Notes under the pieces: generated by a model
Seen by the model: only the letters and a program-made list of their open reading frames with translations
What the model was told of the DNA's origin: nothing
Databases searched by the model: none
Position numbers and translations under genes: made by a program
Source: a bacterium
GTDB taxonomy: Bacteria > Oederibacteriota > CAKKQC01
Assembly: GCA_919901855.1 (NCBI GenBank)
Contig: CAKKQC010000042.1
Span: forward strand, 124,001-188,000
Length of the DNA: 64,000 bases
Direction of reading: 5' to 3'
Shown: positions 17,801 through 28,196 of the stretch, one piece after another
How the letters are laid out: each line of letters begins with the position of its first letter
How positions within the stretch are numbered: position 1 is the stretch's first letter

Positions 17801-18705
17801 CGGTCGCGAACGACGGCCTCTCCGCGCGCTACACGACCGACGGTCCGGATCAGTGCGTCGCGTTCACGCACTTCACCTGCCCGGCCAAGGGGGTCAAGCG
17901 CAGCACGCGGTTCGACATGCTCAGCGGCGGGGCCATGATGGGCCTGTACCAGGACACGCAGGTCACGGAGAAGGGCTACACGGCGTCGTTCCTCTCGAGC
18001 GGCACCCACTACCAGATCATCGCGCCCCAGACCGTGTACATCGGCCAGAGTTTCTGGGTCACGATCATCGTCACGAGCTCGCTGGGCGGCACCGAGGCGG
18101 ACTACTGCGGCACGACGACGTTCACGTCGACCGATCCCGGCGCCAAGATCGCCGGCGTGGGCATGGACGGCTACAACTACACCTGGGACAGCGGCATCAC
18201 CCCGTGCGGAACGTCGCCGTACGACAACGGCATTCATCTCTTCGTGAACGTCAGCATGACCGACATCGGACTCCAGACCATCGTGGCCGTGGACACGACC
18301 GACGGCTCGATCTCGGGGATCACGGCCCTGGTGGTCGTCGGCGCGGACGTCAAGCTGTGGAAGGAACCCAAGCTCTCCGTGATGGCCACCGGCGATACCG
18401 TCAAGTTCAAGGTCTGCTGGAGCAACTACTCCTCCGCGTCCGCGTTCACGTTCGTGGTCACCGACGCGGTCCCCGTGGGCACGACCTTCCTCCCCGAGGC
18501 GTCAGCGGCCGCGCTCGACTGCAAGAGCACGGACGGTGTGCCGATGAACGTGTCCTACTCGACCGCGACGACGCCCACGGTCCCGACCGCCGCCTCGTTC
18601 ACGACGGCCAACCCGGTGGCGGGAACCCGGTGGCTGCGCTGGACCATGCCCATGGCCGGCATCCAGACCACGGGCTGCGCCTGCTACCGCATCCAGATTC
18701 AATAG
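14845..18705 (+). CDS. Large secreted cysteine-rich protein with DUF11-like domains
   Basis: A 1286-residue exported protein. GTG 14845 begins a signal peptide (hydrophobic GIVATAALLIMVGALAP, cleavage near PAAADTC). At ~215-310 lies a DUF11-like surface domain (ADTVTYTIYYGKPGTANLSN, then VVTDTLPNYTHYIAG). A second similar domain lies near the C-terminus (ATGDTVKFKVCWSNYSSASA, VVTDAVPVGTTFLPEA). The middle is rich in Gly, Thr, aromatic residues and Cys, including CCCCSG. No membrane anchor or sorting signal is visible. It is probably surface-exposed or released and disulfide-stabilised. Its last 7 bases overlap the convergent hydrolase gene. Confidence 0.8.
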   Translation: MKAGGIRPARHGIVATAALLIMVGALAPRPAAADTCLQDVWYDGVGSPGRFIFPNWTQAFMGTFTLWLQVETTGVTEQITGFTLVNFGTAVAADIKGLYARLYCNPTGPDPDTGLMTMTYAGGYTEDSGVYPAWTWTGLTPDFSGCPDLCGDPVCGAALTLYVYADIAACPTPWATVNFGLPSNINLSPLRPGSIYDTPWNCTAPWYEADINRGADEDTIVWAYKDADRADPVSAAPADTVTYTIYYGKPGTANLSNIVVTDTLPNYTHYIAGTGSVAPDPGWDPDVGPPQRLRWTILTNLTVAGGATDSITFQVSVDWGNGEAFEPGSGDVGSPEALPLINRANVSWGGITPCATKALTTDPVSTPVRRFLFWKLGDNDILFAGALGQPPDEMIYTVFLKNLSSRKTWWDVRIWDTVPQYLDSWCQDCGHEDPCVGWTMTPTGCAAASPGSYVSATKTTVLTWRLDMPPAMTLNLRWKSQVRATAPSGATAINQVAIKGLGRVNVVEGTGDTGPPQYFTHLALITLRTTYISYVGFGASTNNRACPGFFIDFFPLNKQSQFELRGIQYGGGGTWADVGGKSQSIGCLIGDCITGFPGDAICTLGAGVTAIPGGGYPGCKVERIPATYNPTGWIDVCPPWPFNFIYKLTSNSPVVWQMLTHIDNCNQDRHTMAPATTLTYAGYMLYTWRGDYANGSSFTMVNTGIPASGVFDATRRTTVHLFRYDYTANNWLYMKTYGIAGHSQASDITDCPNNTQPCADTAPWRIMSSDTQLIVDVGEYSFNTAGCCCCSGADNQGTFAPTRETGLVVGGAGSHFYGTVEPQGCGSNMSLVLIGSTMNAGSYTIWRYTPDTNIGPAKIPGLLRGTSGSWLPAGGANPFAAAGSGPGAPPNPNAGPPFTVDLYNAAPFKRGSNNLFMIEVNSGGPIQVLSGTDLFSQWGGGAVIHDASGTAPAGDTFWHHQTAGRNTCETLVVQWFTPKQGMAIDAVANDGLSARYTTDGPDQCVAFTHFTCPAKGVKRSTRFDMLSGGAMMGLYQDTQVTEKGYTASFLSSGTHYQIIAPQTVYIGQSFWVTIIVTSSLGGTEADYCGTTTFTSTDPGAKIAGVGMDGYNYTWDSGITPCGTSPYDNGIHLFVNVSMTDIGLQTIVAVDTTDGSISGITALVVVGADVKLWKEPKLSVMATGDTVKFKVCWSNYSSASAFTFVVTDAVPVGTTFLPEASAAALDCKSTDGVPMNVSYSTATTPTVPTAASFTTANPVAGTRWLRWTMPMAGIQTTGCACYRIQIQ

Positions 18706-21011
18706 AGCAGATACTTCTCCCTCACGGCCTCGAAAGCCGCCTCGTCATCCCGCCATCCCGCCGCGATATCGTCCGGCGAGACCAGCGCCACGAGCGACTC
18801 GCGCGCGGGGGGACACCCCAGGAGGTTGTCCAGCCCCTCGATCCGGAACGACTCGCCGTGGACGCGGCGCAGGACGTCCGCGATCGAGAGCCCGGTCATC
18901 ACGGGGCGGAACGCTTCCCGGTCGGTCAGCTGCAGGCCCACCCCCGGGCACTCCTCGTTCGCGCACGGGCCCGACACTGGCGTGAAGGTCACGGGGTAGA
19001 ACCGGATCCCCGGCAGTTGCCTCGCGTTCAGCTCCCTCGCCACCCGGGCCCCGTCCATCCACGGGGCGCCCAGGTGCTCGAACGGCGCGTCCGTCCCCCG
19101 CCCGACCGAGAGGTTCGTCGCCTCGATCAGCCCGACGGCCGGATACAGGATCGCCTGCGTGAGCGTCCGGATGTTCGGCGAGGGGTTGGCCCACGGCAGG
19201 CCGGTCTCGTCGAACCACATCCCCCGCCGCCAGCCCTTGACCGGGATCACGGTCAGCTTCGCCCCGATGGCGTGCTCGCCGTTCATTAGAAGCCCCAACT
19301 CACCGATGGTCATCCCGTGCCGGACGGTCAGGGACGTGTAGCCCGTGAATCCCCAGCGCTCCTTCGGCAGGCGCGGGCCCTCGACCCGGAGTCCCGTGAT
19401 CGGGTTCGGCCGGTCGAGCACGATGACCTCGAGCCCGGCCGCAATCGCCGCTTCGAGGCAGTGGCCGAGGGTAGCGTGATAGGTGTAGAACCTGACGCCG
19501 ATGTCCGGGAGGTCCACGACAAGGGCGTCGAGACCCTTGAGCCATTCCGGCTTCGGCCGGAACGTCTCGCCGTAGAGGGAGTGGATCGGGACCTTGAGCA
19601 CGGCGTCCTCACCCGAAGGCACCTTCTCGTCGAGCTTCGCCTCGAGCCCGTGCTCGGGGGTGAAGAGCGCGGCGATCGTCACGCCCGGCGCCCGCCGCAG
19701 GACGCTCAGCGTCGTCTCGCCCTTCGCGTTCAGGACCGAGAGGTTCGTGACGACGCCGATCCGCTTCCCCTGCAGGGCCTTGAAGCCATCCGCTTCCAGC
19801 ACGTCGATCCCGGTCAGGACCGCCCCAAGCTTCGGGGCCACCGGTGACCCGGCACTCCGGGCCGGCATGACGGATCGCGCGACGAGGTTAGCGACCCGGC
19901 GGCGCACGGGGTCCGCGTTCCCGCCGCCCGCCGGATGCACCCGGTTCGCGAGGATCACGATGACCGTCCGGCTGCCCGGATCGGCCCAGACCGAGGTCCC
20001 CGTGAATCCCGTATGGCCGAACCCGCCGAATGGAAAGAGGTCTCCCCGCGGCCCGTACCCGTCGGGATCGGTGTCCCACCCCACGAACCGGGGCCGCAGC
20101 CCCCCGGGCGACTGGATGTGCGTGAGCATGGCGGCGGCGCCGGGCGACAGGAACCGCTTCCCCTTCCAGGTCCCGCCGTCCAGCAGGACCTGGGGAATCA
20201 CGCGGACTTCGTCCGCGGTCGAGAAGAGCCCCGCGTGCCCCGCGACGCCGTCCATGTCGTGCGCGCGCGGGTCGTGTACCTCGCCGCGCAGCCAGCGGTC
20301 CCCCAGCCGCTCGGTCGCCGCGCACCGGGCGCACTTCGCCTTCGCCGGCTTGAACCCGGTGTCCGTCAATCCCAGCGGCTTCGCAATACGCTCCGCGAAG
20401 AACCGGTCGAGCGGCATCTTCACCGCGGCCTCGACGACCTTCCCCAACGTGATGTAGTTGTAGTCCGCGTAGAGGTAGGCGGTTCCCGGCGGCACGAACA
20501 GCTCCTTCGTCCACAGGAGGTCGAATACTTTCGCCGTGGTGACCATGGGGCGCTGGGGGTCGTACAGTCCGGCGTCGTTGAGACCCCCCGAGTGCGTGGC
20601 GAGGTCCAGGATCGTGACCGCTTCCTTGCCGCCACCCGTGAACCGCGGAAGCCACCGCGAGACCCGGTCGCGCAGCGTGAGGACGCCCTGGTCCGCGAGG
20701 AGGGCGAGCGCCGTGCCCGTCGCCAGCGGCTTCGTGAGCGAGGCCAGGTCGAAGATCGTGTCCCGGCGCATCGGGACCTTCGACGGCTCGACCTGGGCGT
20801 CCCCGAAGGCCTCGTGGTAGACGACGCGGCCGTCCACGGCCACGAGAATCACGGCCCCGGGGATCTCATGCCGCGCGATCCCGTCCTGGACCGCCACCGC
20901 GATCCCCGCGCGGACGGCGGACGGCAGGGCGGAAGCTCTCACGTCCGGCTCCGGCGCAACCGCGCCGGCCCCGGCTGACGCAAGAGCGAACGCCAGGAAC
21001 AGGAGGGACAC
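18699..21011 (-). CDS. Exported serine hydrolase (beta-lactamase fold) fused to NamZ exo-N-acetylmuramidase
   Basis: A 770-residue two-domain protein. A signal peptide (SLLFLAFALASAGAGA) starts at GTG 21011. Residues ~35-375 are a class C beta-lactamase/DD-peptidase-like domain: Ser91-x-x-Lys94 in ASLTK, YAD (181-183) and HTG (333-335) in place of KTG. Residues ~395-770 are a NamZ (DUF1343) domain, which removes MurNAc from non-reducing ends of peptidoglycan chains; Glu453 in FTPEHG is the expected catalytic acid. It would work in the periplasm or outside on cell-wall fragments, one domain on peptides or esters and the other on sugar. GTG follows the GH18 stop by 5 bases; both belong to one minus-strand operon. 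Confidence 0.9.
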   Translation of the reverse strand: MSLLFLAFALASAGAGAVAPEPDVRASALPSAVRAGIAVAVQDGIARHEIPGAVILVAVDGRVVYHEAFGDAQVEPSKVPMRRDTIFDLASLTKPLATGTALALLADQGVLTLRDRVSRWLPRFTGGGKEAVTILDLATHSGGLNDAGLYDPQRPMVTTAKVFDLLWTKELFVPPGTAYLYADYNYITLGKVVEAAVKMPLDRFFAERIAKPLGLTDTGFKPAKAKCARCAATERLGDRWLRGEVHDPRAHDMDGVAGHAGLFSTADEVRVIPQVLLDGGTWKGKRFLSPGAAAMLTHIQSPGGLRPRFVGWDTDPDGYGPRGDLFPFGGFGHTGFTGTSVWADPGSRTVIVILANRVHPAGGGNADPVRRRVANLVARSVMPARSAGSPVAPKLGAVLTGIDVLEADGFKALQGKRIGVVTNLSVLNAKGETTLSVLRRAPGVTIAALFTPEHGLEAKLDEKVPSGEDAVLKVPIHSLYGETFRPKPEWLKGLDALVVDLPDIGVRFYTYHATLGHCLEAAIAAGLEVIVLDRPNPITGLRVEGPRLPKERWGFTGYTSLTVRHGMTIGELGLLMNGEHAIGAKLTVIPVKGWRRGMWFDETGLPWANPSPNIRTLTQAILYPAVGLIEATNLSVGRGTDAPFEHLGAPWMDGARVARELNARQLPGIRFYPVTFTPVSGPCANEECPGVGLQLTDREAFRPVMTGLSIADVLRRVHGESFRIEGLDNLLGCPPARESLVALVSPDDIAAGWRDDEAAFEAVREKYLLY

Positions 21012-21016
21012 ACGCG

Positions 21017-22153
21017 CTACCGGGAGTCCGGCGCAGGAGCATCCAGCGCCTGCCAGAACGCGGGCTCCTCGGACCCGAGCCGCCAGACCGCGATTCCGGC
21101 GACGCCCGCCGCCCGGACCGCGGCAAGCTTCGCGGGCAGGCACGCCGCATCCTCGTACCAGACGAAGTGCTCGTCCGTGTTCTCGAGGTACGAGAAGTGC
21201 GGCTCCCCCGAATCCGGATCCCGCTGGATCCTGGCCCCCTTCTTCTTCGCGAGCTCCGGCGCCGTCCGCGGCACGACGTCGGTAGCCTTCCCCGTCCTCG
21301 ACCCCGTCCAGTCGTAGCCGTAGGTTGGAATGCCCATCAGGATCTTCTCCTTCGGCACCCGGGCCACCGCGAAGGCGAGGACCTCCTTGAACCACGGCAG
21401 GGCTGCCAGCGGGCCCGCCGGACCGCCCGAGTAATGGTGGTCGTAGGTCATGATACGGAAGGAATCCACCAGCTTGCCGAGCGCCTCCCAGTCCTGGGCC
21501 GACGGCCCCCAGTCGTCCCCGGGCTCCGCGACCTTCGGGTGGAACGCGCCCGCCAGCAGCTTCCCCCGCGCGTGCAGGGCGGCGGAGAGTTCGGTCATGA
21601 AGGCCGTGAACGCCGCCCGGTCGCCGCCCTTCATGAGCTCGTAGTCGATCTCGATGCCGTCGTACCCGTGCGCCGTCACGAGCGTGACCAGCGCCCGCAC
21701 GTGGCTCGTGCGCAGGAGGGGCGTGTTGAGGACCCGGCTCGTCATCTCGGGGTCGAAGGAACGGCCGGGTTGGGAGTTGCTGATGAGCGGCATGAGCCTG
21801 GTCCCGGAGCGCCAGCACACGGCGCGCACGTCGTCCTCGACCGGGCCCACGACCTCGCCCGACTTGCCGTCCGTCACCCGGGCCAGCACCCCGCCGTTCG
21901 GCTCGAGCCAGTACCACACGGGAGACACGCAGGCGAGGCGCGACGCGTTGGTCACGAACGACGGCCACGCGTTCTCGAAGTCCCACGTGGTCGGCAACCA
22001 CGCGGACACCTCGACCACCGGCCCGGACGCGGCGGCCGACCATCCGCAGCTCCCCGCTGTAAGGATGACAGCCAGGACCGTCACGAATGACGCGACTTCG
22101 CGGAAGGGCGAAGGCTGCTTCACGATGCTTTCATGGTATGCGACCAGCTCCAT
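21017..22153 (-). CDS. Exported GH18-family glycoside hydrolase
   Basis: A 378-residue hydrolase with an N-terminal hydrophobic export segment (FVTVLAVILTAGSCGW; the Cys could be lipidated). The GH18 active site DGIEIDYE is at 165-172, with Glu172 the acid and the usual Asp pair before it. The later RIMTYDHHYSGGPAGP and MGIPTYGYDW blocks match the YaaH/spore-cortex-lyase-like branch of GH18, which acts on GlcNAc-containing peptidoglycan or chitin. Its place beside NamZ favours a cell-wall or amino-sugar substrate. TAGCCT lies 8 bases upstream of the ATG. Confidence 0.85.
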   Translation of the reverse strand: MELVAYHESIVKQPSPFREVASFVTVLAVILTAGSCGWSAAASGPVVEVSAWLPTTWDFENAWPSFVTNASRLACVSPVWYWLEPNGGVLARVTDGKSGEVVGPVEDDVRAVCWRSGTRLMPLISNSQPGRSFDPEMTSRVLNTPLLRTSHVRALVTLVTAHGYDGIEIDYELMKGGDRAAFTAFMTELSAALHARGKLLAGAFHPKVAEPGDDWGPSAQDWEALGKLVDSFRIMTYDHHYSGGPAGPLAALPWFKEVLAFAVARVPKEKILMGIPTYGYDWTGSRTGKATDVVPRTAPELAKKKGARIQRDPDSGEPHFSYLENTDEHFVWYEDAACLPAKLAAVRAAGVAGIAVWRLGSEEPAFWQALDAPAPDSR

Positions 22154-22167: not shown

Positions 22168-22323
22168 TGGCCGCTCAGCGACCACCTTGCCGTTGCGCCA
22201 GACGTAGATTGGCGTACCGTACATACGGGCAGTCCTGCGCGCCGCACGGGCCGACCGGCGCAGAGCACGGCCAACAGCCAATGCGAACGCGTTGATGCGC
22301 TTCCTACCGTGGTTGTTCTTCAT
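22165..22323 (-). CDS. Small basic partner protein of the zeta-like kinase (candidate antitoxin)
   Basis: A 52-residue protein. ATG 22323 shares ATGA with the kinase stop, so translation is coupled. It is rich in Arg (VGRALRRSARAARRTARM) and ends in a short strand pattern, GTPIYVWRNGKVVAERP. I recall similar short proteins beside zeta-like kinases, but no named family is claimed. A toxin-neutralising or adaptor role is inferred from pairing alone. Order is kinase first, partner second, unlike classical epsilon-zeta. Confidence 0.6.
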   Translation of the reverse strand: MKNNHGRKRINAFALAVGRALRRSARAARRTARMYGTPIYVWRNGKVVAERP

Positions 22324-22844
22324 GGGGCAGTCTCCAGCAATCTCGGCCAATCTTCAGAATTATCATACACCGCCCACGTGTCCGCCAGCGGTCGATAGGC
22401 CACCTCGAAATTGGCCCATCCACGGATGTATCGCCGCACCACGTCGCCACGAGGTACATGGTGGCCGCCCTGCCGAACTCGCGCGGCAACACGTCGGAGC
22501 GCGAGATCCGGAGAAGAGAGACGCAGGTAGACAATCTCGATGCGGTATCCTGCGGCCTTCCACCGTCTCAACCGGGCGAGATGCACAATCCCGCTCAAGG
22601 TGCTCTCGAATGCGAAGTCAGCTCGCTCTCCGGCAAGCCGGTCGAGCTCGGCCAGCAAGAGGCGCCCGGCCTTCAGCGCCGCCAGCTCCGGACGAAGGGG
22701 AGACAGACCACCTGCGATCAGGTCGGCGTTCACGAAGTGAACGATGCCGGTATCCTTGGGCAGGAACTCGCGAGCGAACGTCGTCTTGCCCGCACCGTTG
22801 GGGCCTGCGATGACGATGCAGACCGGTGATCTGCGCGATGGCAT
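22320..22844 (-). CDS. Zeta-toxin-like P-loop kinase
   Basis: A 174-residue kinase. The Walker A loop AGPNGAGKTTFARE is at ~13-26, followed by HFVNADLIAGGLSP, FAFESTLSG and IVYLRLSS, the layout of zeta/AAA_33 kinases. Classical zeta toxins (PezT, zeta) phosphorylate the 3'-OH of UDP-GlcNAc and block wall synthesis. ATG 22844 is chosen over longer upstream starts because it lies 6 nt after a perfect TATAAT and directly before the family start. The gene sits in an amino-sugar salvage region, so an amino-sugar or UDP-sugar substrate is plausible. Confidence 0.85.
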   Translation of the reverse strand: MPSRRSPVCIVIAGPNGAGKTTFAREFLPKDTGIVHFVNADLIAGGLSPLRPELAALKAGRLLLAELDRLAGERADFAFESTLSGIVHLARLRRWKAAGYRIEIVYLRLSSPDLALRRVAARVRQGGHHVPRGDVVRRYIRGWANFEVAYRPLADTWAVYDNSEDWPRLLETAP

Positions 22845-22850
22845 TCGGAC

Positions 22851-22856
22851 ATTATA
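22851..22856 (-). promoter_or_regulatory. -10 element of the zeta-like kinase pair
   Basis: A perfect TATAAT on the minus strand, 6 nt before the ATG at 22844. A weak TTCGAC lies 16 nt further upstream. Divergent from TAGGAT at 22905. Confidence 0.6.
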
Positions 22857-22904
22857 TCCTCCGCGGCTCAACGTCGAATGACGGCCCACTCGCGCTGAGG
22901 CTGT

Positions 22905-22910
22905 TAGGAT
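22905..22910 (+). promoter_or_regulatory. -10 element of anmK
   Basis: TAGGAT, 7 nt before the ATG at 22918; no ribosome site between. Confidence 0.5.
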
Positions 22911-22917
22911 AGTCCCC

Positions 22918-24039
22918 ATGTACGCCGCGGGACTGATGTCGGGCACGTCGTGCGACGGGATGTCGGGGACGCTGATCCGCCTGTCCGCGGCCCATTCCCG
23001 CCCTTCGCTCCTCACCGTCGCCCACGCCGCCTACGCGCCCACGGACCGCCGCCTCCTGCTCGACCTCGCCTCAGGTGGGCCTAGCGGAGCGTCTGTCTTT
23101 GCCCGCGCCGGCGAGATCGTGGCCCGCGCCTCGATCACGTGCGTGCGCGCGTTGCTCAGGAAAGCACGGATTCCAGCCCGGCGGGTCGCCGTCATCGGCG
23201 CCCACGGCCACACGCTCTACCACGGCCCGCACGATCCGGCCGGGCCGGTCACGTTCCAGGCCGGAAACCTGTCCAGGATCGCGGAGGAGACCGGCGTGAC
23301 CGTGGTCGGCGACTTCCGGCCCCGGGACGTCGCGGCCGGCGGCGAGGGGGCCCCGCTGGCCCCCTGGGCCCACTGGCGTCTGCTGACGTCTCCCCGGGAG
23401 CCCCGGCTGATCCTGAACCTCGGCGGGATCGCGAATGTGACCTGGCTCCCAGCCGGGGCCAGGAGTCAGGACGTCGTCGCGTTCGACACCGGCCCGGCCA
23501 ACATGATTCTGGACCTGCTGGCCGCCCGGGCAACGCGCGGCCGCAGGACCTGCGACCGCGGCGGGCGGATGGCCGCCCGGGGCCGCGTGCATCCGCGCGT
23601 CCTCGCCCGACTGCTCGCCCACCCGTACTTCCGGCGGCGGCCGCCCAAGAGCACGGGCCGGGAGGAGTTCGGCGCCCGTCTGCTCCCGGCTTTCCGGGGT
23701 CTCGATGCCGCGGACGCCCTCGCGACCGCGACCGTCTTCACGGCCCGGTCCGTCGAGGCGCAGATCGGGCGCTGGCTACCCGCCGGGTCCCGCCGAGCGA
23801 CCGTCTACGTCGGCGGGGGCGGGGCCCGCAATCCGGTCCTCATGCGCGCGCTCGCGGGCGTGCTGGCCCCCCGGCGCGTCCAGCGCGTCGGCGACCTCGG
23901 TTGGCCCGAGCAGGCGCTCGAGCCCGTCTGCTTCGCCCTCCTCGCGATCGCGCGCCTCAAGGGGCTCCCGAACGTTCTGCCCCGGGTTACGGGGGCCCGG
24001 CGCGCCGTCTGCGCGGGCGTCCTGGTGCCCGCCCGATGA
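22918..24039 (+). CDS. anmK: Anhydro-N-acetylmuramic acid kinase
   Basis: Hydrolyses the 1,6-anhydro ring of anhydroMurNAc and phosphorylates it to MurNAc-6-phosphate, in the cytoplasm. The 373-residue protein has all the family blocks: GLMSGTSCDG (5-14), IGAHGHTLYHGP, ILNLGGIANVTWLP, FDTGPANMILD with the catalytic Asp, and VGGGGARNPVLMRAL. AnhydroMurNAc comes from lytic transglycosylases, so this implies recycling of the cell's own or a neighbour's wall. The stop overlaps the next start as ATGA. Confidence 0.95.
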   Translation: MYAAGLMSGTSCDGMSGTLIRLSAAHSRPSLLTVAHAAYAPTDRRLLLDLASGGPSGASVFARAGEIVARASITCVRALLRKARIPARRVAVIGAHGHTLYHGPHDPAGPVTFQAGNLSRIAEETGVTVVGDFRPRDVAAGGEGAPLAPWAHWRLLTSPREPRLILNLGGIANVTWLPAGARSQDVVAFDTGPANMILDLLAARATRGRRTCDRGGRMAARGRVHPRVLARLLAHPYFRRRPPKSTGREEFGARLLPAFRGLDAADALATATVFTARSVEAQIGRWLPAGSRRATVYVGGGGARNPVLMRALAGVLAPRRVQRVGDLGWPEQALEPVCFALLAIARLKGLPNVLPRVTGARRAVCAGVLVPAR

Positions 24040-25790
24040 TCTACGCGGGGATCGATGCCGGCGGCACCAAGGTCCGCGTGGCGGTGGCCGATGGGCGCGG
24101 CCGGCTGGTCGCGCATCGCGAGGGCCCCGGCGCCAACGCCCTCACGGACGGGCCGGACGCCGCCGTGGAACGGATCGTGGACGCCCTCTCGGGTCTGCGA
24201 CCTGACGCCATCGCGGTCGGGCTCGCGGGCGCCTGGTCGCTCCTCGTCAGCCGCCGAGTGACGACCGGGTTGCGGGCCGCCCTCGGCACCCGCCGGGTTG
24301 TGGTCCGCAACGACGCCGTCGCCGTTCTGGAAGCGCTCGCCCCCCGCGAGCCCGCGGTCCTCGTTGCCGCCGGGACCGGCACCGTCACGATCGGACGCGC
24401 CGCATCGGGCCGCGTGGTCCGCGTGGACGGCTGGGGCCCCGTCCTGGGCGACGAGGGATCCGGACTCTGGATCGGCCGCCGGGCGGTCGAGCATGCGCTC
24501 CGGGCCCACGACGGAAGGGCCCGTCCCTCGACGTTCGCCCGGGCTATCCTGCGCGCGGCCGGACTGGCGAATCCGGAACGCGATATCCGCCGCCTCTACG
24601 CCCCCGGGTTCCGGCCGCAGGCGCTCGCCCGATTCGTGCCGCTGGTCGCCGGGTTCGCGCGCCGCGGTGATCCCGACGCCCGGCGGATCATGCAGGAAGC
24701 CGGGCGTTTACTCACGGAGAGCGCGCTCGTAGCCCGCCGCAAACTCGGCGGTCGGGGGCGCGTCCGCCTCTTTGCGACCGGCGGCCTCACGGGCGTGGTG
24801 CCACTGCGGCCCGGCCGCGCCTTCGTCCTCGACCGGCGCCGGATCATCCCCGAAGCCGCCGCGCTCCGGCTCGCCGCCCGCGCGTTCGGCGGCGCCGCGA
24901 CGGAACGGTTGCTGGAACCCGCGATCACGCGGCTCGACCGGTCCCGGCCCCGCCGGGTCCGCGACGGCTTCGCATCCATCCCGGCGACCGAACGGGCGAA
25001 CCCACTGACGGCGGGATTCTCGCGGATGACCGTGCTGGAGATGGTCCGGGCCATGAACCGCGAGGACGCCCGGGTCGCCTCCGCGATCGCGCGCATCCTG
25101 CCCGCCGTCGCCCGGGCCGTCACACTGGCCGAGCGCAGCCTGCGCCGGGGCGGACGCATGATCTACGTCGGCGCGGGCACGAGCGGAAGACTGGGGGTCC
25201 TGGACGCCTCCGAGGTCCCGCCGACTTTCGGCGTGAAGCCGGGTGTCGTCGTCGGGGTCATGGCGGGCGGCCGGCGGGCCCTGGACTCCTCGATCGAGGG
25301 CGCCGAGGATAACGCCGAGGCCGGAGTTTCCGCGATGCGTAGGATCCGCGTGGGACGCAGGGATTTCGTCGTCGGCCTCTCCGTCAGCGGCGGCGCTCCG
25401 TTCGTGCTGGCCGCGGTCCGGGAGGCCCGGCGGCGCGGCGCGGCCACGGCCGCCATCACCGTCAACGCGGCGTCGCCCCTGGCCCGCGCCGTGCACGTGC
25501 CCCTTGTTCCCGCGGTCGGTCCGGAAGTCGTGGCCGGCTCGTCGCGGCTCAAGGCCGGCACGGCCCAGAAGATGCTGCTGAACATGCTCTCGACCTGCGT
25601 CTTCGCCCTGCTCGGCCGGGTCCGTGGTAACCTGATGTCTCACGTGAAGCCCGTCAACGAGAAGCTCCGGGGCCGCGCCGTGCGCATCGCCGCACGCCTG
25701 CTCTCCGTGCCCGCCGCCGAGGCCGAGGCTCGCTTGAAGCGATCCGGCTGGCGACTCGACGCGGTCCTTGACCGAGTGGTCGGCTCCTGA
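24036..25790 (+). CDS. murQ: BadF/BcrA-type amino-sugar kinase fused to MurNAc-6-phosphate etherase (MurQ)
   Basis: A 584-residue bifunctional protein. Residues 1-~290 are a BadF/BcrA/NagK-type sugar kinase (YAGIDAGGTKVRVAVAD, AGTGTVTIG, GWGPVLGDEGSGLWIGRRA), the family of GlcNAc kinase and clostridial MurK, which phosphorylates MurNAc and GlcNAc. Residues ~310-584 are MurQ: ATERANPLTAGF, then GAGTSGRLGVLDASE (379-393) with Glu393 as the expected general acid/base and EGAEDN (421-426). MurQ splits MurNAc-6-P into GlcNAc-6-P and lactate. One chain could therefore carry MurNAc to GlcNAc-6-P. The frame is unbroken across the junction. NagA, the next enzyme, is absent from the window. Confidence 0.93.
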   Translation: MIYAGIDAGGTKVRVAVADGRGRLVAHREGPGANALTDGPDAAVERIVDALSGLRPDAIAVGLAGAWSLLVSRRVTTGLRAALGTRRVVVRNDAVAVLEALAPREPAVLVAAGTGTVTIGRAASGRVVRVDGWGPVLGDEGSGLWIGRRAVEHALRAHDGRARPSTFARAILRAAGLANPERDIRRLYAPGFRPQALARFVPLVAGFARRGDPDARRIMQEAGRLLTESALVARRKLGGRGRVRLFATGGLTGVVPLRPGRAFVLDRRRIIPEAAALRLAARAFGGAATERLLEPAITRLDRSRPRRVRDGFASIPATERANPLTAGFSRMTVLEMVRAMNREDARVASAIARILPAVARAVTLAERSLRRGGRMIYVGAGTSGRLGVLDASEVPPTFGVKPGVVVGVMAGGRRALDSSIEGAEDNAEAGVSAMRRIRVGRRDFVVGLSVSGGAPFVLAAVREARRRGAATAAITVNAASPLARAVHVPLVPAVGPEVVAGSSRLKAGTAQKMLLNMLSTCVFALLGRVRGNLMSHVKPVNEKLRGRAVRIAARLLSVPAAEAEARLKRSGWRLDAVLDRVVGS

Positions 25791-26680
25791 TGGCGGCAAA
25801 GGTCCCGCTCCTCGAGAACCCGTACACGCCGCGCGGCCGCTGGTACAAGGGCGCCTTCCACTTCCACTCCACCAACTCCGACGGATCACTCACGCCCGCC
25901 GAATCCATCCGCAAGTACGCGGACGCCGGGTTCGACGTCATCGGGCTATCGGACCACGGGTGCGTGAGCGTCGTGCCTCCCGAGTGGTTCCCGGGCAAGC
26001 TCCTGATTCCGACCGGCGAGTTCTCCTGGCCCCACATCCTGCACATCGGCGCGAAGGGCCGCGGCCGCGTGCGCGAAGGCTCGTTCAAACAGGTCCTCGC
26101 CCGCGTCCGGCGCGAGCGCGGGTTCGCCGTCTTCTGCCACCCGGCGTGGTCCAACCACACCTGGCAGGAGACGATGGATGCCTGGCCCGTCGACGCCGTC
26201 GAGGTCCTGAACTACGTGACCGAGATCGAGAACGCGACCGGGTACTCGATAGAGCGGTGGGACATGATGCTCCAGGCGGGACGAAGGGTGTGGGGGTTCG
26301 CGGACGACGATTCCCACTTCCGTCCCGCGTACCCGCAGTACGGCGGCGGGTACGTCATGATCCGGGCCCCGCGGCTGACGCAGGACGCGATCCTGCGCGC
26401 GCTCAAGGGCGGGTCGTTCTACTCGACGATGGGTCCCGAGTTCCACGACATCCGGGTCACCCGGGGGCAGGTCAAGGTGAGGACCTCGCCCGTCGTGGAA
26501 CTCCGCGCGATCGCGGACGGCGTCGGCGCGGGCCAATGCTACTTCTCAAAGCGGCCGTGCCGCGACTGGACCGTGCGCTATGACGGGTGGTGGGCCAAGC
26601 CCCGTCGCTACCTGCGCCTCGAACTCAAGGACACGCGCGGCAGGACCGCGTGGTCCAACCCCCTCTTCGTCAGGCGGTAG
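25790..26680 (+). CDS. PHP-domain metal-dependent phosphoesterase-like protein
   Basis: A 296-residue PHP/CehA-like protein. Metal-binding motifs are in order: GAFHFHSTNSDG, GLSDHGCVSVV, GEFSWPHILHIG, AVFCHPAWSN and GFADDDSHF. There is no signal peptide. PHP proteins hydrolyse phosphate esters, but the substrate is unknown here. Its ATG shares one base with the murQ stop (TGATG), so it belongs to the salvage operon and may act on a phosphosugar. The last 11 bases overlap the convergent GH20 gene. Confidence 0.85.
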   Translation: MAAKVPLLENPYTPRGRWYKGAFHFHSTNSDGSLTPAESIRKYADAGFDVIGLSDHGCVSVVPPEWFPGKLLIPTGEFSWPHILHIGAKGRGRVREGSFKQVLARVRRERGFAVFCHPAWSNHTWQETMDAWPVDAVEVLNYVTEIENATGYSIERWDMMLQAGRRVWGFADDDSHFRPAYPQYGGGYVMIRAPRLTQDAILRALKGGSFYSTMGPEFHDIRVTRGQVKVRTSPVVELRAIADGVGAGQCYFSKRPCRDWTVRYDGWWAKPRRYLRLELKDTRGRTAWSNPLFVRR

Positions 26681-28196
26681 CGCCCCGCTTCGGGGGCTCC
26701 TCGATCCGGTCCGGGCCCGCGGTGATGCCCATCCTCGCCAGCCGGTCGCGGTACGACACCGTCCGAGCCTGAAACTCGGCGAAGTCCTTGCCCGCCGCAG
26801 GCGACCAGAGGTTATCGGCCACCGCGAGCAGACGCGGGAACGCCTGAAGCGCCACGCGCTCGGGCGGGCAGCCCTCGGTCCACAGGCACGCCTCGCCGCC
26901 GAGCAGGCGGGCGGGGTCCGGCAGGACGGCGGGGGTGAGCGCCGTGTGCTCGCCCTCCTCCGTCGGCTCCCACGAGTGCACGTGCTTGAGGTCCATCCAG
27001 GTCGGCGGCTCGTTGAGGTAGACGTGGCTATAGGGCGAGTGGATGACGTCGCGCCCAGCCGCCGCGGCCTTGCTCACGGCCTTCTCGTTCGCTCGCCACG
27101 CCTGCACGATGACCGACTGCGGCGGGCCGCCCTCGAGAATCTCGTCCCAGCAGATCGCGCGCCGGCTCTTGCCCGTCAGGAACCGGATCATGCGGTGGAC
27201 GAACCAGCTCTGGAGCTCGTGCTCGTCCTTGAGCTTCTCCGACTTGATCCGCGCCTGGCACTTGGGGCACGCCTTCCACCGGTCCTTGGGCACCTCGTCG
27301 GCGCCGAGGTGGATGTACGCGGACGGGAAGAGCTCGACGACCTCGCTGAGCACGCCCTCGAGGAACTCGACGACCTTGTCGTTGCCGGCGCAGTATACGT
27401 CCTTGTGGATCCCCCACTCGGTCTGGACCTGGAACGGCCCGCCCGTGCACGACAGCTCCGGGTACGCCGCGAGCGCGGCGACGCAGTGGCCGGGCAGCTC
27501 GATCTCGGGCACGACCTCGATGGACCGGGCGGCCGCGAACGCGACGATCTCCTTCACGTCCGCGTGCGTGTAGAAGCCTCCGTACCGCGCGCCCCCGGCG
27601 GGGGTCCGCCACGACCCGACCGAGGTCAGCTTCGGCCAGCGCTTGATCTCGAGCCGCCACCCCTGGTCCTCGGTCAGGTGCCAGTGGAACCGGTTGAGCT
27701 TGAGCGCGGCCATGGCCTCGATCGTCCGCTTCACGAGATCCAGCGGCTGATAGTGGCGGGCGCAGTCGAGCATGAACCCCCGCCACGCGAACCGGGGACG
27801 GTCCTCGATGCGCACGCAGGGCACCGTCCACGCGCCGGCGGGAGCCTTCTCCCCGCCCTCGATGGCGGCCGGCAGAAGCTGGCGGAGCGTCTGGAGCCCG
27901 TAGAACGCCCCCCTGGTCCCGCGCGTCCGGATCTTGATCTGGGCCGGCGTGACCTCGAGGAGGTACCCCTCCTGCCCGAGGTCGGTCGGCCCGTCCTCGG
28001 TGATCACGATCGGGCCCGTCGAGCCCTCGCGCACGGGCCACGGGAATCCGGTCGCCGCCCGCAGCTTGACGGCCAGGAATTCCACCGACGTGTGGAACCC
28101 GGACATCCCGAACGGGACGACGAAGACGGCCTCGCGGGTGAGGGTGAAAACGCCGGGGAGGAATTCGACCTTCGAGGGGCGGGGGATGAGGTTCAT
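26670..28196 (-). CDS. GH20 beta-N-acetylhexosaminidase
   Basis: A 508-residue hexosaminidase releasing terminal GlcNAc/GalNAc. The N-terminal GH20b-like domain precedes the barrel, which has RGFMLDCARHYQPLDLVKR, HWHLTEDQGWRLEIKRWP, EIELPGHCVAALAAYPEL and the catalytic Asp-Glu pair in HLGADEVP. No signal peptide is seen (MNLIPRPSKVEF), so it probably acts on imported disaccharides or muropeptides in the cytoplasm. It closes the salvage region, divergent from the O-antigen-ligase-like gene, with TAAACT 11 bases before the ATG. Confidence 0.92.
   Translation of the reverse strand: MNLIPRPSKVEFLPGVFTLTREAVFVVPFGMSGFHTSVEFLAVKLRAATGFPWPVREGSTGPIVITEDGPTDLGQEGYLLEVTPAQIKIRTRGTRGAFYGLQTLRQLLPAAIEGGEKAPAGAWTVPCVRIEDRPRFAWRGFMLDCARHYQPLDLVKRTIEAMAALKLNRFHWHLTEDQGWRLEIKRWPKLTSVGSWRTPAGGARYGGFYTHADVKEIVAFAAARSIEVVPEIELPGHCVAALAAYPELSCTGGPFQVQTEWGIHKDVYCAGNDKVVEFLEGVLSEVVELFPSAYIHLGADEVPKDRWKACPKCQARIKSEKLKDEHELQSWFVHRMIRFLTGKSRRAICWDEILEGGPPQSVIVQAWRANEKAVSKAAAAGRDVIHSPYSHVYLNEPPTWMDLKHVHSWEPTEEGEHTALTPAVLPDPARLLGGEACLWTEGCPPERVALQAFPRLLAVADNLWSPAAGKDFAEFQARTVSYRDRLARMGITAGPDRIEEPPKRGATA

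Follow-up and report, generated by a model that had tools for sequence, protein, structure and literature searches.

A predicted sugar kinase–MurQ fusion protein in a putative bacterial peptidoglycan-recycling locus

A stretch of bacterial DNA of 64,000 nucleotides (hereafter, the window) carries a gene in which a BadF/NagK-type sugar kinase and a MurQ-type etherase are joined in one open reading frame. We consider it likely that the product is a bifunctional cytoplasmic recycling enzyme, a MurNAc (and probably GlcNAc) 6-kinase and MurNAc-6-P etherase that makes GlcNAc-6-P. The N-terminal NagK/MurK-type kinase would phosphorylate C6 of MurNAc, giving MurNAc-6-P, and probably that of GlcNAc, giving GlcNAc-6-P, and the C-terminal MurQ would cleave the lactyl ether of MurNAc-6-P to give GlcNAc-6-P and D-lactate. 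The MurQ half could receive MurNAc-6-P from its own kinase half, or from AnmK acting on anhydro-MurNAc. The entry routes of MurNAc, anhydro-MurNAc and GlcNAc would then converge on GlcNAc-6-P. Here, we describe the gene and its neighbors, and we infer from them the catalytic activity, the sugar specificity and the order of the steps.

The fusion gene and its two halves

The gene occupies positions 24036–25790 of the forward strand. Translation from the ATG at 24036 to the TGA at 25788–25790 is free of stops and gives 584 residues, as an earlier note on this DNA had claimed. The same note had placed a BadF/NagK-type kinase and MurQ in one protein, which the Pfam and NCBIfam profiles confirm; Pfam matches BcrAD_BadFG at residues 5–252, together with SIS/GKRP domains. 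The two parts are separated by a linker (24891–24983, forward strand; residues 286–316) whose modeled confidence falls below a pLDDT of 50 at residues 306–314. There is no ATG between the kinase and MurQ parts; the first is at residue 331, within MurQ and beyond the conserved TERANP motif, meaning that a separately translated MurQ would have no obvious start.

The only same-family relative available for comparison, genome G001, carries the same in-frame fusion (locus L002) with 63% identity overall: 57% in the kinase half, 72% in the MurQ half and 39% in the linker. Differences between the two genes at codon positions 1/2/3 are 0.31/0.30/0.55 for the kinase and 0.20/0.20/0.49 for MurQ; both halves are under purifying selection. 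For the linker the values are 0.46/0.36/0.54, with no clear third-position bias. In the L002 protein, EGAEDN and SEVPPT near the MurQ active site are replaced by ERAEDR and SEARPT, with the catalytic glutamates kept, and GDEGSG in the kinase is replaced by GDAGSG. We give almost no credence to the idea that an assembly error, or a recent stop loss, produced the continuous frame from two ordinary genes. Kinase and murQ genes do adjoin in many genomes, and the window's assembly consists of 91 contigs, but the fusion in an independent genome of the same family, and the missing start for a separate MurQ, both speak against it. Indeed, L002 already refutes assembly error unless both assemblies carry one shared error.

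The MurQ domain (24984–25754, forward strand; residues 317–573) scores above the cut-offs of two NCBIfam models, NF003915 (319.7 bits, cut-off 168) and NF009222 (289.7 bits, cut-off 255). Its score against the stricter equivalog TIGR00274, 286.8 bits, is under the cut-off of 302, which fits a missing C-terminal tail: the match runs out at profile position 263 of 300, and the protein is ~30 residues shorter at this end than the E. coli form. Thus, the description of this MurQ as complete holds for its catalytic motifs and fails for the E. coli-type C-terminus. The acidic residues that had been claimed are present, namely Glu393 (25212–25214, in LDASE) and Glu424 (25305–25307, in GAED), which we take to be the counterparts of the E. 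coli MurQ catalytic residues Glu83 and Glu114. Because Bacteroidota MurQs and most other kinase–MurQ fusions are equally short at the C-terminus, a full-length C-terminus does not define the family; judged by its sequence, the window MurQ is a natural short form. In comparisons with solved structures, H. influenzae and Y. enterocolitica MurQ are the best Foldseek matches, and a phmmer sequence search gives an E-value of 2.7e-67 to the MurQ in 4s12. The MurQ proteins of H. influenzae, E. coli and Y. enterocolitica (PDB 4lzj, 4m0d and 4s12) are 43–47% identical to the window half and have its fold and both catalytic glutamates; they differ from it in being free of a kinase and in having the ~30 C-terminal residues. 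With both motif glutamates intact, the window half is a predicted etherase.

The kinase domain (24048–24791, forward strand; residues 5–252) matches PF01869 with an E-value of 7e-24 and a score of 85.2 bits, above the gathering cut-off of 31.5. Every kinase motif is intact, including the catalytic Asp93 (codon 24312–24314), GTGT at 113–116 and GWGPVLGDEGSG at 132–143; D93 is invariant among 24 aligned kinases. In alignment A1, stand-alone kinases were placed onto the MurQ half, and six fused rows made up the kinase part of the full-length model, so the kinase was re-modeled by itself from alignment A2. This AlphaFold model has a pLDDT of 94.6 and an ASKHA sugar-kinase fold, with Z scores to sugar kinases of 23–30: 29.8 to S. 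tokodaii hexokinase, 28.2 to C. acetobutylicum MurK, 27.8 to human NAGK and 23.0 to T. forsythia MurK. The hexokinase (2e2n) and NAGK (2ch5) share this fold but have no MurQ domain, and no kinase–MurQ fusion was among the matches listed in PDB sequence and Foldseek searches. The full-length model of the fusion (pLDDT 87.3) has a pTM of 0.62, a value that leaves the relative placement of the domains unfixed.

Gene neighborhood

In established pathways, NamZ frees MurNAc, AnmK produces MurNAc-6-P, and MurQ uses MurNAc-6-P up. Genes for the first two lie near the fusion. Immediately upstream is anmK, for anhydro-MurNAc kinase (22918–24039, forward strand; PF03702, E-value 2e-88), whose stop codon overlaps the ATG of the fusion by four bases (ATGA); anmK lies upstream of the fusion in L002 too. 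Further away, on the reverse strand (18699–21020, start approximate), a single frame encodes a secreted serine hydrolase of the beta-lactamase family (AmiE/PBP4B-like) fused to NamZ, with E-values of 1e-66 for PF00144, 5e-68 for NamZ_N and 2e-45 for NamZ_C. This is a second in-frame fusion at the locus, again of two plausible consecutive recycling steps. Adjacent to it is a GH18 family glycosidase gene (21017–22153, reverse strand; PF00704, E-value 2e-28); GH18-like sequence is also found beyond anmK in L002. Between the glycosidase gene and the fusion, a possible zeta-toxin-type P-loop kinase with a GPNGAGKTT motif (22320–23015, reverse strand) occupies a frame that overlaps the start of anmK in antisense.

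Downstream, the start codon of a CehA/McbA-family metallohydrolase gene (25790–26680, forward strand; NCBIfam NF038032, 102 bits, cut-off 80) overlaps the fusion's stop codon by one base; no such gene was seen at the corresponding place in L002. It is followed by a GH20 beta-hexosaminidase gene (26670–28196, reverse strand; PF00728, E-value 4e-108), whose product has no obvious signal peptide when its N-terminus is inspected by eye. These neighbors support a peptidoglycan-recycling setting, and we take the surroundings of the fusion to be a recycling locus. Elsewhere, the window's genome encodes NagB and further BadF and ROK kinases; the assembly, which is 93% complete, has no canonical NagA match. 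The metallohydrolase is, speculatively, a candidate for GlcNAc-6-P deacetylation in this genome that has no NagA match. A plasmid nucleotide search returned nothing close.

Substrate of the kinase half

Kinases for MurNAc and for GlcNAc are hard to distinguish from sequence. The top NCBIfam match of the kinase half is a NagK, at 59.8 bits, far under the cut-off of 370. In T. forsythia, where the murTKQ operon has the MurK kinase gene beside murQ (PMC5790795), the preference of MurK for MurNAc has been ascribed to S133/P134/L135, which give the lactyl group room, and to T94 (PMC10465942). That protein (PDB 8oqw and 8ow9) belongs to the same superfamily as the window kinase, and the same two activities are encoded adjacently, although by separate genes. 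Its lactyl-pocket residues are unlike those of the window kinase, which has D131/G132/W133 in place of S133/P134/L135 and N92 in place of T94. The C. acetobutylicum MurK likewise does without the T. forsythia residues and yet phosphorylates GlcNAc and MurNAc alike at C6 (PMC4432640), meaning that these residues do not define the activity. It is a stand-alone protein (PDB 8zo3) that resembles the window kinase in family and fold, with 25% identity, and has the same N-D-A catalytic motif and a GWG-type pocket, but at the positions of D131 and W67 it carries G and D. For human NAGK, phosphorylation of MurNAc is similar in level to that of GlcNAc (PMC9477735). To judge from these residues, the window pocket is of the type seen in NagK and C. 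acetobutylicum MurK, not of the T. forsythia MurK type. Since both the clostridial and the human enzyme accept MurNAc, such a pocket is compatible with MurNAc, without proving its use. By analogy, MurNAc, and probably also GlcNAc, would be the sugar of the kinase half, which is genetically linked to murQ by the fusion itself.

It is also conceivable, though rather improbable, that the kinase half takes GlcNAc only. The protein would then run no relay from MurNAc to GlcNAc-6-P but would join two branches at GlcNAc-6-P, with GlcNAc entering through the kinase and anhydro-MurNAc through AnmK and then MurQ. The overlapping anmK would yield MurNAc-6-P on its own, the nearby GH20 enzyme would set GlcNAc free, and the best profile match, far under its cut-off, is the NagK; moreover, the carboxylate of the lactyl group could be repelled by D131, whose position faces that group, as may be reasoned from the T. 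forsythia work (PMC10465942). However, C. acetobutylicum MurK and human NAGK have the same pocket type and take MurNAc, the adjoining NamZ implies free MurNAc, and D131 and the DGWG motif recur in actinobacterial kinases that are linked to MurQ. We regard as very unlikely a further alternative, in which the kinase half mainly regulates MurQ or supports it structurally, comparable to the pairing of animal glucokinase with the MurQ-related regulator GKRP. MurQ is homologous to GKRP, and an Acidobacteriota fusion (L045) has GSG for the kinase motif GWG, suggesting that a kinase half can drift. In the window, by contrast, all kinase motifs are intact and this half is under purifying selection, and unfused tandem kinase–murQ pairs are common.

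Distribution, origin and meaning of the fusion

In a search of mostly open-access literature, we found no paper that describes a kinase–MurQ fusion or characterizes a member, in agreement with the earlier statement that no characterized enzyme of this layout was known. The architecture is not a one-off: a search of public genomes found it repeatedly. A contig scan detected in-frame fusions from Verrucomicrobiota, from one Pyrinomonadaceae genome (Acidobacteriota) and from Psychrosphaera. Among the Verrucomicrobiota, 39 of 288 sampled genomes matched, ~18 of them over the whole fused length and nearly all of these in one open frame; among the Acidobacteriota, matches in 104 of 297 genomes included two intact fusions and two more with internal stops. 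The fusions of these two phyla (L031, L132–L139, L045 and L142) are ~35% identical to that of the window, with the same domain order, single frame and short MurQ tail. Even divergent fusions retain the MurQ motifs and the majority of the kinase motifs. Long open frames in L050, L064 and L075 were rejected as fusions, their N-terminal parts being low-complexity, out-of-frame sequence.

A single origin of all fusions is rejected by the AU test for MurQ (p = 0.029), whereas neither MurQ (p = 0.725) nor the kinase (p = 0.467) rejects an origin shared between the window fusion and those of Verrucomicrobiota and Acidobacteriota. Psychrosphaera groups beside gammaproteobacteria that carry both genes in tandem, unfused and in the same order, which points to an origin of the Psychrosphaera fusion by stop loss. 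Tandem kinase and murQ genes also occur in Thermomicrobium, Arthrobacter, Rhizobium and Deinococcus, and a BadF-family kinase gene adjoins murQ in many unrelated genomes. Other pairings were encountered as well. A Longilinea metagenome-assembled genome (L053:2648–4720) has a different kinase–MurQ fusion, an in-frame AnmK–MurQ with a BadF kinase gene directly downstream. On a Deinococcus peraridilitoris plasmid (L121:2869–4440), a MurQ frame adjoined by a BadF kinase gene runs, by eye, into NanE-like (ManNAc-6-P epimerase) sequence, and in a Pyrinomonadaceae contig (L127:1384–3219) a BadF kinase gene is directly followed by a gene for a SIS-domain protein. Within the window's own phylum, only two of 45 genomes, the window's and that of L002, had a match to the fusion at 1e-20; no murQ was detected in the others by this search. 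This makes the gene an uncommon one in the lineage, where it may be an acquisition.

The reading of the protein as a two-step enzyme is supported by strong family matches, intact motifs, purifying selection and a MurK/NAGK-like fold, as well as by kinase genes beside murQ in unrelated genomes, the NamZ neighbor and NagB in the genome. Against it stand the absence of the T. forsythia pocket residues, which C. acetobutylicum MurK lacks too, the ability of AnmK to supply MurNAc-6-P without a MurNAc kinase, the lack of a NagA match in the 93%-complete assembly, the short MurQ tail and a domain arrangement that the model does not fix. We are doubtful of the stronger proposal of an uncharacterized, one-protein converter of MurNAc to GlcNAc-6-P that passes MurNAc-6-P between its sites and has arisen at least twice. 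Since each half is of a known family and the fusion is found repeatedly in public genomes, we see in it an apparently uncharacterized variant of a known pathway step, not a system of a new kind.

A covalent link to MurQ flags candidate MurNAc kinases across several phyla. In the window, the fusion completes a plausible recycling locus consisting of a secreted hydrolase–NamZ, AnmK and kinase–MurQ. More broadly, that two enzymes acting consecutively in recycling have been fused repeatedly suggests selection for their co-expression or for the hand-over of MurNAc-6-P.
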